Of a stretch of DNA of 64,000 nt, positions 18,640 to 55,834 are shown piece after piece. A model generated the notes under the pieces. The model searched no databases and was not told the DNA's origin. It saw nothing but the letters and a program-made list of their open reading frames with translations. A program made the translations under genes and the position numbers. The DNA comes from Permianibacter fluminis (GTDB taxonomy: Bacteria > Pseudomonadota > Gammaproteobacteria > Enterobacterales > Permianibacteraceae): NCBI RefSeq assembly GCF_013179735.1, contig NZ_JABMEG010000003.1:124001-188000 (forward strand), given 5' to 3'. How positions within the stretch are numbered: position 1 is the stretch's first letter; every line of letters starts with the position of its first letter.

Positions 18640-18704
18640 GTAGGAGCGAGCTTGCTCGCGATGCCTTTGCTGGCTGAATGAATCGCGAGCAAGCTCGCTC
18701 CTAC
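18640..18704. repeat. REP-type inverted repeat pair
   Basis: GTAGGAGCGAGCTTGCTCGC at 18640 is repeated as its exact reverse complement ending at 18704 (23-base arms, 19-base loop). Each arm itself contains the palindrome GCGAGCTTGCTCGC. The sequence is the same type as REP doublets (REPINs) described in Pseudomonas. It sits between ilvE and ilvD and could fold in the mRNA, lowering or protecting downstream message. Confidence 0.85.
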
Positions 18705-33117: not shown

Positions 33118-33185
33118 TCCATTTCTCTCCGCGTTTATGCGGTCAGCAAAAAAATTTTGATGATCGGCTGGCGGCTTCGGTCACC

Positions 33186-33276
33186 AACCACCCCCATCCC
33201 CTCCTTGACAAGGAGGGGAGCAAGACACGCCAGCCAATCCAATCCCCCTCCTTTTCAAGGAGGGGTTAGGGGTGGT
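33186..33276. repeat. Inverted-repeat element between kynU and kmo
   Basis: Left arm 33186-33218 and right arm 33244-33276 are near-identical inverted copies. Each holds the palindrome CCCCTCCTTG.CAAGGAGGGG and ends outward in AACCACCCC. The same arm sequence bounds the element at 44868-45064, so it is a dispersed family rather than a local terminator. No coding capacity; a non-autonomous (MITE/REPIN-like) element is the best description. Confidence 0.8.
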
Positions 33277-33322
33277 TGAGCGCCATCGATGCGGTAGTGG
33301 CAAAACGCGCCAGCGCTATCAT

Positions 33323-42197: not shown

Positions 42198-42426
42198 CAA
42201 AGAGAACACGCCCCACGCGCCAGAATCGGTTTGGTTGCTTCGGCCGACTCCGCCCGTCGCTTCGGCGTTAGCGGCTTCGGGCACGTGCTGATGCGGCGTC
42301 CTGCCTTATCAGCACTGCGCAAGCCATCCGGGCTTGCGCACCCGGCCGCTAACGCCGAATCGCCGGCTGGCGCGAATGGGGGCCCCGTTTTCTAGCTGAG
42401 CCGGATGCTTCGGCAATACCACCCAG

Positions 42427-42510
42427 CCTGTCATTTCGGCGAAAGCCGGAATCCATTGTCTTCTCTACATCAAAATCAAATTGGATTCCGGCCTTCGCCG
42501 GAATGACAGG
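42427..42510. repeat. Inverted pair of the ATTCCGGC repeat
   Basis: Left copy 42427-42456 (CCTGTCATTTCGGCGAAAGC...ATCCAT) and right copy 42482-42510 (TGGATTCCGGCCTTCGCCGG...GACAGG) are inverted. Same family as 55347-55426, but no gene is associated here. Confidence 0.8.
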
Positions 42511-42741
42511 CGTGATTTGCTTTTTTTGGCGCGCAGCGTGCTTTTGACTTCCCCGCCCGTTCGACGAGCCGAGCAGCGGAATGGAGTCTGGGTTAACAGC
42601 CCGCAGCGTAGCGAAGGGGCGAGGCAGGACGCCGAAGCCTTTTGTGACTGCACAAGGATGTGCTGTCACAAAAGCCCCAGACGGAATGAGCAGCACAGGG
42701 AACCGTGCGAAGCACGGCTCGGAGCCTGGCAATGTTCTTTG

Positions 42742-42768
42742 GTGACTTTCTTGCGCCAAGAAAGTCAC
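42742..42768. repeat. Perfect 12-bp hairpin
   Basis: GTGACTTTCTTG (42742-42753) pairs with CAAGAAAGTCAC (42757-42768), loop CGC. A motif of this kind recurs in repetitive intergenic DNA of related genomes (from memory). Confidence 0.7.
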
Positions 42769-42868
42769 TCGGCCGCCGGGCCGAGACCCGGCAGCGGCCT
42801 TCAATTACGAGATGGCTTTTGGAGGGAAGTGAAAAATGTATCCGATTGAATCTGAAAATCGAATGCGT

Positions 42869-44867: not shown

Positions 44868-45064
44868 AACCACCCCCAGCCCCGCCCAGCCAAGCCCTGA
44901 GGGCTTGGCGCTTCGTGGGCACACAGTGCATTGGCACTGTGCTTTTCCCCCTCCGCCCTTGCCAAGGAGGGGAAAAAAGTTGGGTCACGCTGTGACAGCA
45001 CATCGACCAATTGAACCGGTGTCAATCGATCCCCCTCCTTGTCAAGGAGGGGTTAGGGGTGGTT
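44868..45064. repeat. 197-base inverted-repeat element between the SDR and aldehyde dehydrogenase genes
   Basis: The outer ends are inverted AACCACCCC (44868) and GGGGTGGTT (45064), the same termini as at 33186-33276. The right end carries the palindromic unit CCCCCTCCTTGTCAAGGAGG. Inside are two perfect hairpins: GCCAAGCCC/GGGCTTGGC (44889-44909) and CACAGTGC/GCACTGTG (44922-44941). No gene. Either a larger family member or a nested insertion of other repeats. Confidence 0.78.
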
Positions 45065-45131
45065 GAACTCCGTTCTTGCACTCGTCAGCTACGACGGCAA
45101 AAATCCGTACAAATCCGCACAACTTATCCGC

Positions 45132-55281: not shown

Positions 55282-55346
55282 GATGAGCCTCGTTGGGGTA
55301 ACAATTGACAGGGGATCTTCCCGGTCTGCAAATCAAATAAAAAAAA

Positions 55347-55426
55347 ATGGATTCCGGCCTGCGCCGGAATGACAGGAGTTGCAGCGACAACCACTGTCTG
55401 TCATTCCGGCGCAGGCCGGAATCCAT
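55347..55426. repeat. Perfect inverted ATTCCGGC repeat pair next to the GIY-YIG gene
   Basis: Left arm 55347-55375 begins ATGGATTCCGGCCTGCGCCG; the right arm 55398-55426 is its exact reverse complement (29 bases, 22-base loop). Same family as 42427-42510 and 55759-55787. It stands 15 bases beyond the GIY-YIG stop codon. Confidence 0.9.
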
Positions 55427-55441
55427 GTTGATGTTCTACTG

Positions 55442-55732
55442 TCAGGTCTTGCCAACCAGAGAATCATAAAGATCCCGCCAGTCGGGGTTGTTGGCTTCGA
55501 TCAATTTCAGCTTCCATGCCCGGTGCCAGCCTTTGATTTGCTTTTCCCGTGCAATCGCGGCGGTGATGTCCTGCGACTCTTCAAAATGCACCAGTTGCTT
55601 GATCTGGTAACGCCGGGTGAAGCCATCCGCTTCTCCCTGCTTGTGCTGCCATACGCGCTTAATCAATTCACTGGTTACGCCAACATAAAGCGTTCCACGC
55701 GGGTTGCTGGCCATGATGTAAACCCAGTACAT
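55442..55732 (-). CDS. Small GIY-YIG nuclease domain protein
   Basis: 96 residues, essentially one GIY-YIG domain: the motif appears as WVYIM...GTLYVGVTS, followed by the conserved arginine and the helix LIKRVWQHKQGEADGFTRRY and the glutamate-containing IAREKQIKGWHRAWKLKLIE. Single-domain proteins of this type occur widely with unknown roles (UPF0213-like). The gene has palindromic repeats at both ends (55347-55426 and 55759-55787), suggesting the nuclease and the repeats belong together. Confidence 0.9.
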   Translation of the reverse strand: MYWVYIMASNPRGTLYVGVTSELIKRVWQHKQGEADGFTRRYQIKQLVHFEESQDITAAIAREKQIKGWHRAWKLKLIEANNPDWRDLYDSLVGKT

Positions 55733-55758
55733 CGGCCTTCCTCATCCATGAGATAAAA

Positions 55759-55787
55759 ATGGATTCCGGCCTTCGCTGGAGTGAAAG
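55759..55787. repeat. Degenerate ATTCCGGC repeat copy upstream of the GIY-YIG gene
   Basis: ATGGATTCCGGCCTTCGCTG at 55759 continues as GAGTGAAAG, matching the left arm at 55347 with several changes, so it no longer forms a perfect palindrome. Lies 26 bases before the GIY-YIG start. Confidence 0.8.
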
Positions 55788-55834
55788 GCTGGAATCGCGC
55801 CGACAACTTGGAACTCGCTCTCCAGATGTTCTGT

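Follow-up and report, generated by a model that had tools for sequence, protein, structure and literature searches.

The nuclease gene and its flanking repeats

In the window, which is the whole 64,000-nucleotide stretch of Permianibacter fluminis DNA that was analysed, a gene for a 96-residue single-domain GIY-YIG nuclease lies between hemL and pyrB among palindromic repeats. The initial annotation had described such a gene together with an inverted pair, a degraded copy and a gene-less dimer, and all of these are present (Table 1). It had also placed the gene between the pair 55347-55426 and the degraded copy. Repeats do flank the gene, but its direct neighbours are the units 55400-55425 and 55760-55785, whose GTC tags point outward and whose CCA tails point towards the gene, while 55348-55373 is an extra unit outside.

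Table 1. Positions of the nuclease gene, the repeats and related features in the window.
Feature	Position	Strand	Remarks
Single-domain GIY-YIG nuclease gene, 96 aa	55442..55732	-	Putatively Ssn-type; G68 and H70 at the positions tied to stem base 6
CGTC-1 type REP, 3' side of the nuclease gene, tail towards the gene	55400..55425	+	GTC tag, 8-nt stem ATTCCGGC, 4-nt loop, CCA tail
Degraded REP, 5' side of the nuclease gene, tail towards the gene	55760..55785	-	3 mismatches
Extra REP outside; inverted pair with 55400-55425, tags facing	55348..55373	-	Near-perfect pair
hemL-pyrB intergenic site holding the unit	55282..55834	.	Two confamilial genomes have neither nuclease nor tagged hairpin there
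Left REP of the gene-less tail-to-tail dimer	42430..42455	+	
Right REP of the gene-less tail-to-tail dimer	42482..42507	-	
Query stretch, part of the larger interspersed repeat family carrying the gene-less dimer	42300..42800	+	68 blastn matches in the genome (501-base query), many of them short REP-only matches

The sole Pfam match of the protein is GIY-YIG (PF01541, 2.4e-14), which covers the whole domain (residues 1-75) at 53.8 bits against a gathering score of 22.6, and the protein is thus a member of the GIY-YIG superfamily. The catalytic set of these enzymes consists of two Tyr, an Arg, a Glu and an Asn. All of these positions are found in the nuclease: Y16, R26, E63 and N82 are invariant in 24 of 24 alignment rows, and the first Tyr is Y5 in the window protein, a position missing from the rows that were trimmed at an internal start. 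The AF2 model has a mean pLDDT of 95, its fold comparison gives Slx1, At-HIGLE, UPF0213, I-TevI and UvrC N-terminal domains at Z 5.2-7.2, which is a middling range, and its top Foldseek match is UPF0213 BH0048 (1zg2). Searches with the protein gave no match in NCBIfam, PADLOC (at E 0.1, anti-phage defence models), PHROGs or PDB sequences, and one weak match in a phage collection. When we compared six pairs of nuclease genes, dN was well below dS in four (0.009/0.25, 0.04/0.58, 0.14/1.0 and 0.11/2.0); the remaining two were a Sphingobium pair (0.022/0.048) and a pair without a dS estimate.

The intact unit consists of GTC, ATTCCGGC, a 4-nt loop, GCCGGAAT and CCA. In the sections of PMC3733652 on CGTC-1 REPs, these are described with a CGTC, TGTC or CCTC tag, an 8-bp stem nearly always starting with AT, a 4-nt loop and a tail that is mostly CCA. 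The stretch 55399-55425, which reads TGTC-ATTCCGGC-GCAG-GCCGGAAT-CCA, has every one of these features, and what the window adds to that description is a nuclease gene tied to the REPs. The arms of the inverted pair (55344-55375 and 55398-55429) are 32 nt long, 97% complementary and 22 nt apart. When folded as single-stranded DNA and compared with shuffles, the 80-nt stretch 55347-55426 gave -41 kcal/mol (z -11.8) and the single unit 55400-55425 gave -8.9 kcal/mol (z -4.2), while the degraded unit 55760-55785 folded no better than shuffles (z 0.04). Two Rfam microRNA models, mir-643 and mir-5728, also align to the hairpin pair at 55344-55429 with low E-values; as both remain below their gathering scores, we took these matches as chance.

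Other repeats of the window were noted alongside. An inverted pair at 18640-18704 (GTAGGAGCGAGCTTGCTCGC) resembles GTAG-type REPs, and the ribH-ribBA gap of the window genome contains a sequence like it. Another repeat (CCCCTCCTT..AAGGAGGGGTTAGGGGTGGTTG) forms an inverted pair at 33185-33278 and has a distant copy at 45029-45071.

Association of the nuclease with tagged hairpins

The initial annotation had proposed counting repeats and nucleases genome-wide, and the counts bear out an association. The window genome (4.36 Mb, 5 contigs) holds 21 repeat copies at no more than one mismatch and none of the reversed pattern, so the copies are not due to chance; the protein search yielded a single nuclease of this kind. 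A second small GIY-YIG gene examined in this genome (L048) has no tagged hairpin of the CGTC type within 300 bp. We then surveyed 197 genomes of the order, taking matches of at least 64 bits as strong and those of about 34 bits or less as weak and YhbQ-like. There were 31 strong matches in 26 genomes, 43 weak matches and one at 52 bits in between. The pattern GTCATTCCNGCNNNNGCNGGAATC, which covers a part of the stem types, was present in 14 of the 26 nuclease genomes and in 10 of the 171 others (Fisher p 1e-8, uncorrected for kinship), and its reversed form was absent from all genomes listed. Within Kangiella, eight nuclease genomes carry 17, 16, 6, 10, 0, 12, 13 and 6 copies, against 1, 0, 2 and 3 in four genomes without the nuclease (one-sided p 0.02).

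The association also holds for named relatives of many phyla, of which we used the best 80 of at least 569. By a strict rule, a tagged hairpin lay within 300 bp of the gene in 66 of these 80 relatives, on both sides in 46, and in 18 of 816 equally sized control windows from the same loci, 0.9 to 2.7 kb away. By a wider rule, which accepts variant tags and was devised after viewing the misses of the strict one, the counts were 74 of 80, both sides in 52, and 25 of 816. In 32 of the 52 two-sided loci, the nearest units were oriented like those of the window, with the tags outward and the tails facing the gene; the other 20 were divided among further arrangements (7, 9 and 4). Among 20 YhbQ-like genes drawn from the weak matches, none had a tagged hairpin within 300 bp; because only two of those 20 genomes contain the nuclease, this is a weak control and the distant windows are preferable.

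Both kinds of exception that the initial annotation had named as evidence against its reading occur to some extent. Six of the 80 closest named relatives (best 80, wider rule) and 29 of the 113 hold-out genes described below have no detectable hairpin, and the nuclease-less genomes of the order that carry repeats have 1-8 copies each.

Here, we need to consider that the repeats might be ordinary transcription terminators or genome-wide repeats with the gene adjacent by chance. They are intergenic at this locus, and on the strand of the nuclease gene a T run follows the outer unit. Chance neighbourhood is contradicted by the excess over the 816 windows and by the residue-base code that held in new loci, so that it was rejected, and we give this explanation next to no credence.

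Three further arrangements were observed in the course of the survey. On Planktothrix agardhii plasmid p1, a homologue (L166, 18847-19131) has a type IIL restriction-modification gene on one side and the DISARM gene drmA on the other, and the repeats around it escaped the hairpin rules. A YhbQ-like GIY-YIG frame (L076, G112:C65:225-470) runs into an SPVRGEPVEP repeat tail that looks like a translated, different palindromic repeat, and is perhaps another pair of GIY-YIG gene and repeat. At G105:C1:3034549-3037227 there is an array of GTCATTCCTGC-type palindromes with spacings of mostly about 165 or 330 bases.

Covariation of repeat and protein and a two-residue code

We compared repeat distances with protein distances for 96 loci, which remained from 121 genes (102 of them with a repeat) after a 90% identity cut. 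The Mantel rho was 0.39, and none of 2000 permutations was as high. When only pairs between classes were considered (86 loci, 2926 pairs, with classes assigned by hand from record titles and 10 loci of unknown class dropped), rho was again 0.39 and was reached by one of 2000 within-class permutations. In two Kangiella genomes, nuclease paralogues that are 52 and 55% identical have unlike repeats, while their cross-species counterparts (75 and 76% identical) have common repeats, which separates the fit of repeat and protein from host kinship, although these pairs were picked by eye after the repeats had been tabulated.

Each protein column was screened for association with the stem positions and with loop length, and stem base 6 stood out. 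The pair of residue 68 and base 6 had a z of 18.7 and that of residue 70 and base 6 a z of 12.1, followed by 8.4 for the next pair. In the discovery set, K68 occurred with C at base 6 in 46 of 49 loci, the other three having K70 and T, and N, E or D at 68 occurred with G in 23 of 24. A Nevskia MAG gives an example in which the stem follows these residues and not overall similarity: the stem of its locus L106 is that of L130 and L144 (60% identical proteins), not that of L117 from the same MAG (62%), and L106 and L130 carry E68 while L117 carries K68. The window repeat has G at this position (ATTCC[G]GC) and its protein G68/H70, whereas the C-type repeats on both sides of the same-genus orthologue (59% identity, at another genomic site) have C, with K68/R70; the G-type stem is ATTCCGGC and the contrast stem ATTCCCGC. 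G68 is too rare for the rule to predict the window repeat, since it occurs in two of the 96 discovery proteins, once with G and once with C.

The prediction rule was fixed before new loci were fetched and was kept unchanged for two hold-outs. The first was collected from viral contigs and by searching individual classes and phyla; its 92 loci held 91 genes, 74 after the identity cut, of which 56 had a hairpin and 45 received a prediction, 42 of them correct. The second came from 40 hand-chosen places on the same lists; it had 39 genes after the identity cut, 28 hairpins and 24 predictions, of which 18 were correct and 6 wrong. Together, base 6 was predicted correctly in 60 of 69 new loci, with 9 errors and with 15 of 84 loci left without a prediction. 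This compares with a mean of 26.6 and a maximum of 41 in 5000 shuffles, and with 33 of 69 when the base was guessed from the most similar protein. Other residue-base pairs, such as I60 and base 5, come from the screen alone, the hold-outs having covered residues 68/70 and base 6. In addition, a homologue with E68 from a Neisseria sp. MAG (L094) lies among GTCATGCCGAC repeats with G at base 6, and not among the dRS3-type repeats with C.

In the model, the invariant E63 is part of helix 56-68, and residues 69-70 connect this helix to helix 71-81. We propose that residues 68 and 70, at the turn that follows the helix with the conserved Glu, determine which base is recognised at stem position 6. 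Plain phylogeny is an unlikely cause of the match between repeat and protein, given the within-class permutation and the better performance of the rule over similarity. Based on the flank test, the covariation and the two-residue code with its hold-outs, we suggest that the nuclease very probably recognises the repeats that flank its own gene, and this part of the initial annotation has gained strong support from sequence comparison.

Possible mobility of the REP-gene-REP unit

The initial annotation had also proposed a comparison with genomes lacking the insertion, and such genomes exist. In one other genome of the genus and one confamilial genome, hemL and pyrB are adjacent and the gap contains neither nuclease nor tagged hairpin. 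The same-genus orthologue lies between ribH and ribBA, and the other two genomes have neither at that place.

Sphingobium plasmids offer a further comparison. The gene is found in seven records, all of which align along the fnrL / response-regulator region. In the four that were read, a REP-gene-REP unit lies between fnrL and the response regulator, one of the genes having lost a base. Among four gene-less records that were read, two hold other DNA at the spot of the unit and two hold one double-tagged palindrome, which is exact in TYG64 and differs at two bases in TYG74. The TYG64 palindrome can be composed from the two units, its left part being the tag and arm of the left one and the rest the loop, arm and tag of the right one, and a single palindrome of this kind could arise by deletion between the 8-bp arms. 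Double-tagged palindromes were seen in four loci of the set collected at that time (L084, L187, L190 and L236, at no more than one mismatch). In a tree of the Sphingobium flanks, one split parts the four gene-bearing from the four gene-less strains, and rooting on the long TYG65 branch makes the gene-less strains basal. With this longest-branch rooting, the tree suggests a gain of the unit.

Since the gene-less palindrome stands where other plasmids carry the unit and the gene-less strains are basal under that rooting, the gene might also be a free-standing, homing-endonuclease-like gene. Its product would then cut an empty palindrome, repair would copy the gene into the break, and the spread of gene-less repeats would be independent of it. 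Homing normally destroys the target site on insertion, yet a palindrome stands on each side of the nuclease gene. Moreover, at the sites of the window unit and the same-genus orthologue, the relatives compared have no palindrome. We consider homing of this kind quite improbable.

In two other genomes, units with 30-nt-loop REPs were found at several places. Between the two genomes, L405 and L408 have unlike flanks and are homologous over 514 bp at 87%, and this homology extends 3 nt beyond the CGTC tag at either end. That of L406 and L408 likewise ends 3 nt outside the CGTC tags; since L405 and L406 have common flanks, the two were counted as a single insertion. The right REP of L404 is broken, and the pattern search did not detect the tags in L409 (75-76%). 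At the Kangiella site, the homology ends near the ends of the neighbouring genes and the ends of the unit are therefore not defined there, and five gene-less Kangiella stretches (L241-L245) contain no tagged hairpin. Genome G231 has three copies of 344-378 bp (L401, L402 and L403) that are 99.1-99.5% identical, have unlike flanks and carry a 5'-truncated nuclease gene between REPs. The ends of these copies (TAGGGCG...) are outside the REPs, so their movement may be due to another element.

Recognition could also be without movement, the nuclease trimming or regulating incoming or replicating single-stranded DNA, as Ssn with the NTS repeat reportedly does in Neisseria, while repeats and gene spread jointly through transformation and through homologous recombination from one repeat to another. 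A homologue from N. gonorrhoeae with 51% identity is located among dRS3-type repeats (GTCATTCCCGC), and repeats at many sites would supply homology for exchange. Repeats can furthermore exist without a matching enzyme, since the window genome has about ten C-type REP copies and its single nuclease is not of the K68 kind, and in the order at large 10 of the 171 genomes that lack such a nuclease carry repeats. Nevertheless, units at unrelated loci that end just outside the tags, and sites in relatives that lack any REP, fit insertion better than exchange between existing repeats. We therefore regard spread by exchange alone as rather unlikely, and the REP-gene-REP units look mobile when their sequences are compared.

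Gene-less copies and a larger repeat family

Although the gene-bearing unit looks mobile, the gene-less dimer at 42427-42510 does not support the further claim that it is a non-autonomous derivative mobilised by the nuclease. Of the gene-less tail-to-tail dimers of the window genome, all seven with no more than one mismatch in either unit occupy one and the same place inside a larger repeat family, so the number of dimers need not reflect the nuclease, and we rejected the dimer as proof of mobilisation. This interspersed family (42300-42800; L175-L204) is about 0.5 kb or more in length and has many copies in the window genome. The slot inside it is filled by G-type REP dimers, by C-type REPs or, as in L187 and L190, by double-tagged solo palindromes, and no clean empty member was seen among the members that were read.

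Five places of the window genome have one G-type unit. These cannot all be called single REPs, as the unit in L039 is accompanied by an inverted partner that has diverged, and those in L040 and L044 seemingly by degraded partners. The sequence CCATTTTTATC is common to L040, L044 and the 5' unit of the nuclease gene itself, a weak hint of common descent.

Relation to known systems and proposed mechanism

Ssn nucleases consist of a single GIY-YIG domain of about 95 residues. They are reportedly site-specific single-stranded DNA nucleases, as is reported for SsnA of Neisseria meningitidis with its NTS repeat (Chenal et al. 2025), and the N. gonorrhoeae homologue in its dRS3-type cluster is presumably the ssn gene. 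The window locus resembles Ssn in having the gene among palindromic repeats, with a cognate palindromic repeat beside it, and the Neisseria homologue lies among dRS3/CGTC-1 repeats. It differs in the base at stem position 6, and a specificity of the window nuclease for single-stranded DNA would follow from the family. By homology and repeats, the protein is a putative Ssn-type nuclease.

dRS3 of Neisseria belongs to CGTC-1 (Di Nocera et al. 2013, PMC3733652). According to the passages of that paper on CGTC-tagged REPs, these occur in five phyla, often as dimers, and apparently have no dedicated transposase. In outline, the RAYT/REPtron/REPIN system is similar to the window locus, with a REP-flanked gene, an enzyme presumably acting on the REP hairpin and gene-less dimers elsewhere. 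However, REPtrons as described there have an HUH tyrosine transposase and a GTAG tag, in contrast to GIY-YIG and GTC, and membership of the window unit was rejected on these grounds. UPF0213/YhbQ proteins are set apart from the nuclease by the weak similarity of the 43 matches in the order and by the lack of tagged hairpins in the 20 that were tested.

Our literature searches found no paper joining GIY-YIG with dRS3 or with 'repetitive extragenic palindromic', the Ssn work lying beyond their reach; searches on GIY-YIG with RAYT/REP and on Ssn gave nothing relevant, judged by the titles listed. Part of the link between nuclease and repeat may already be in print through the Ssn work. A nuclease with a cognate repeat is a known kind, and its generality, the residue code and the evidence for a mobile unit come from the present analysis.

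The explanation that we favour, and hold to be likely as a whole, is a REP-nuclease-REP module in which residues 68/70 read base 6, the unit is mobile and its movement is driven by cutting. An Ssn-type single-domain nuclease would recognise the CGTC-1 palindrome beside its own gene and cut it, the palindrome most likely being a single-stranded hairpin when it is recognised; both the cutting and the strandedness are borrowed from the family. The REP-gene-REP unit would be a small mobile element bounded by tagged REPs, able to occupy the spot at which relatives have a double-tagged palindrome. The cut in the palindrome most likely sets off copying or repair by which the unit is moved or duplicated, a step that we infer. 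Counted against this module is the degraded, poorly folding 5' REP of the window. Mobilisation of the repeats by the nuclease, which the initial annotation had suggested by analogy with RAYT/REPIN, is plausible, the mobility being visible in the gene-bearing unit and the nuclease's own role in it being presumed.

A wider reading, which we offer tentatively and which may well prove wrong, is that CGTC REPs are the ends of widespread minimal REP-GIY-YIG-REP mobile elements forming a second, RAYT-independent system for the spread of REPs with a 68/70 code for stem base 6, in which a palindrome serves for both entry and exit and double-tagged solo palindromes are left behind.

CGTC REPs were left without an enzyme in the 2013 account, as far as its passages on these repeats go (PMC3733652), and the link to a 96-residue nuclease is a lead on both their recognition and their movement. 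Since the residue-to-base code is checkable with a few oligonucleotides, the origin and spread of CGTC REPs become directly testable. The family could also provide small single-domain nucleases of selectable specificity.
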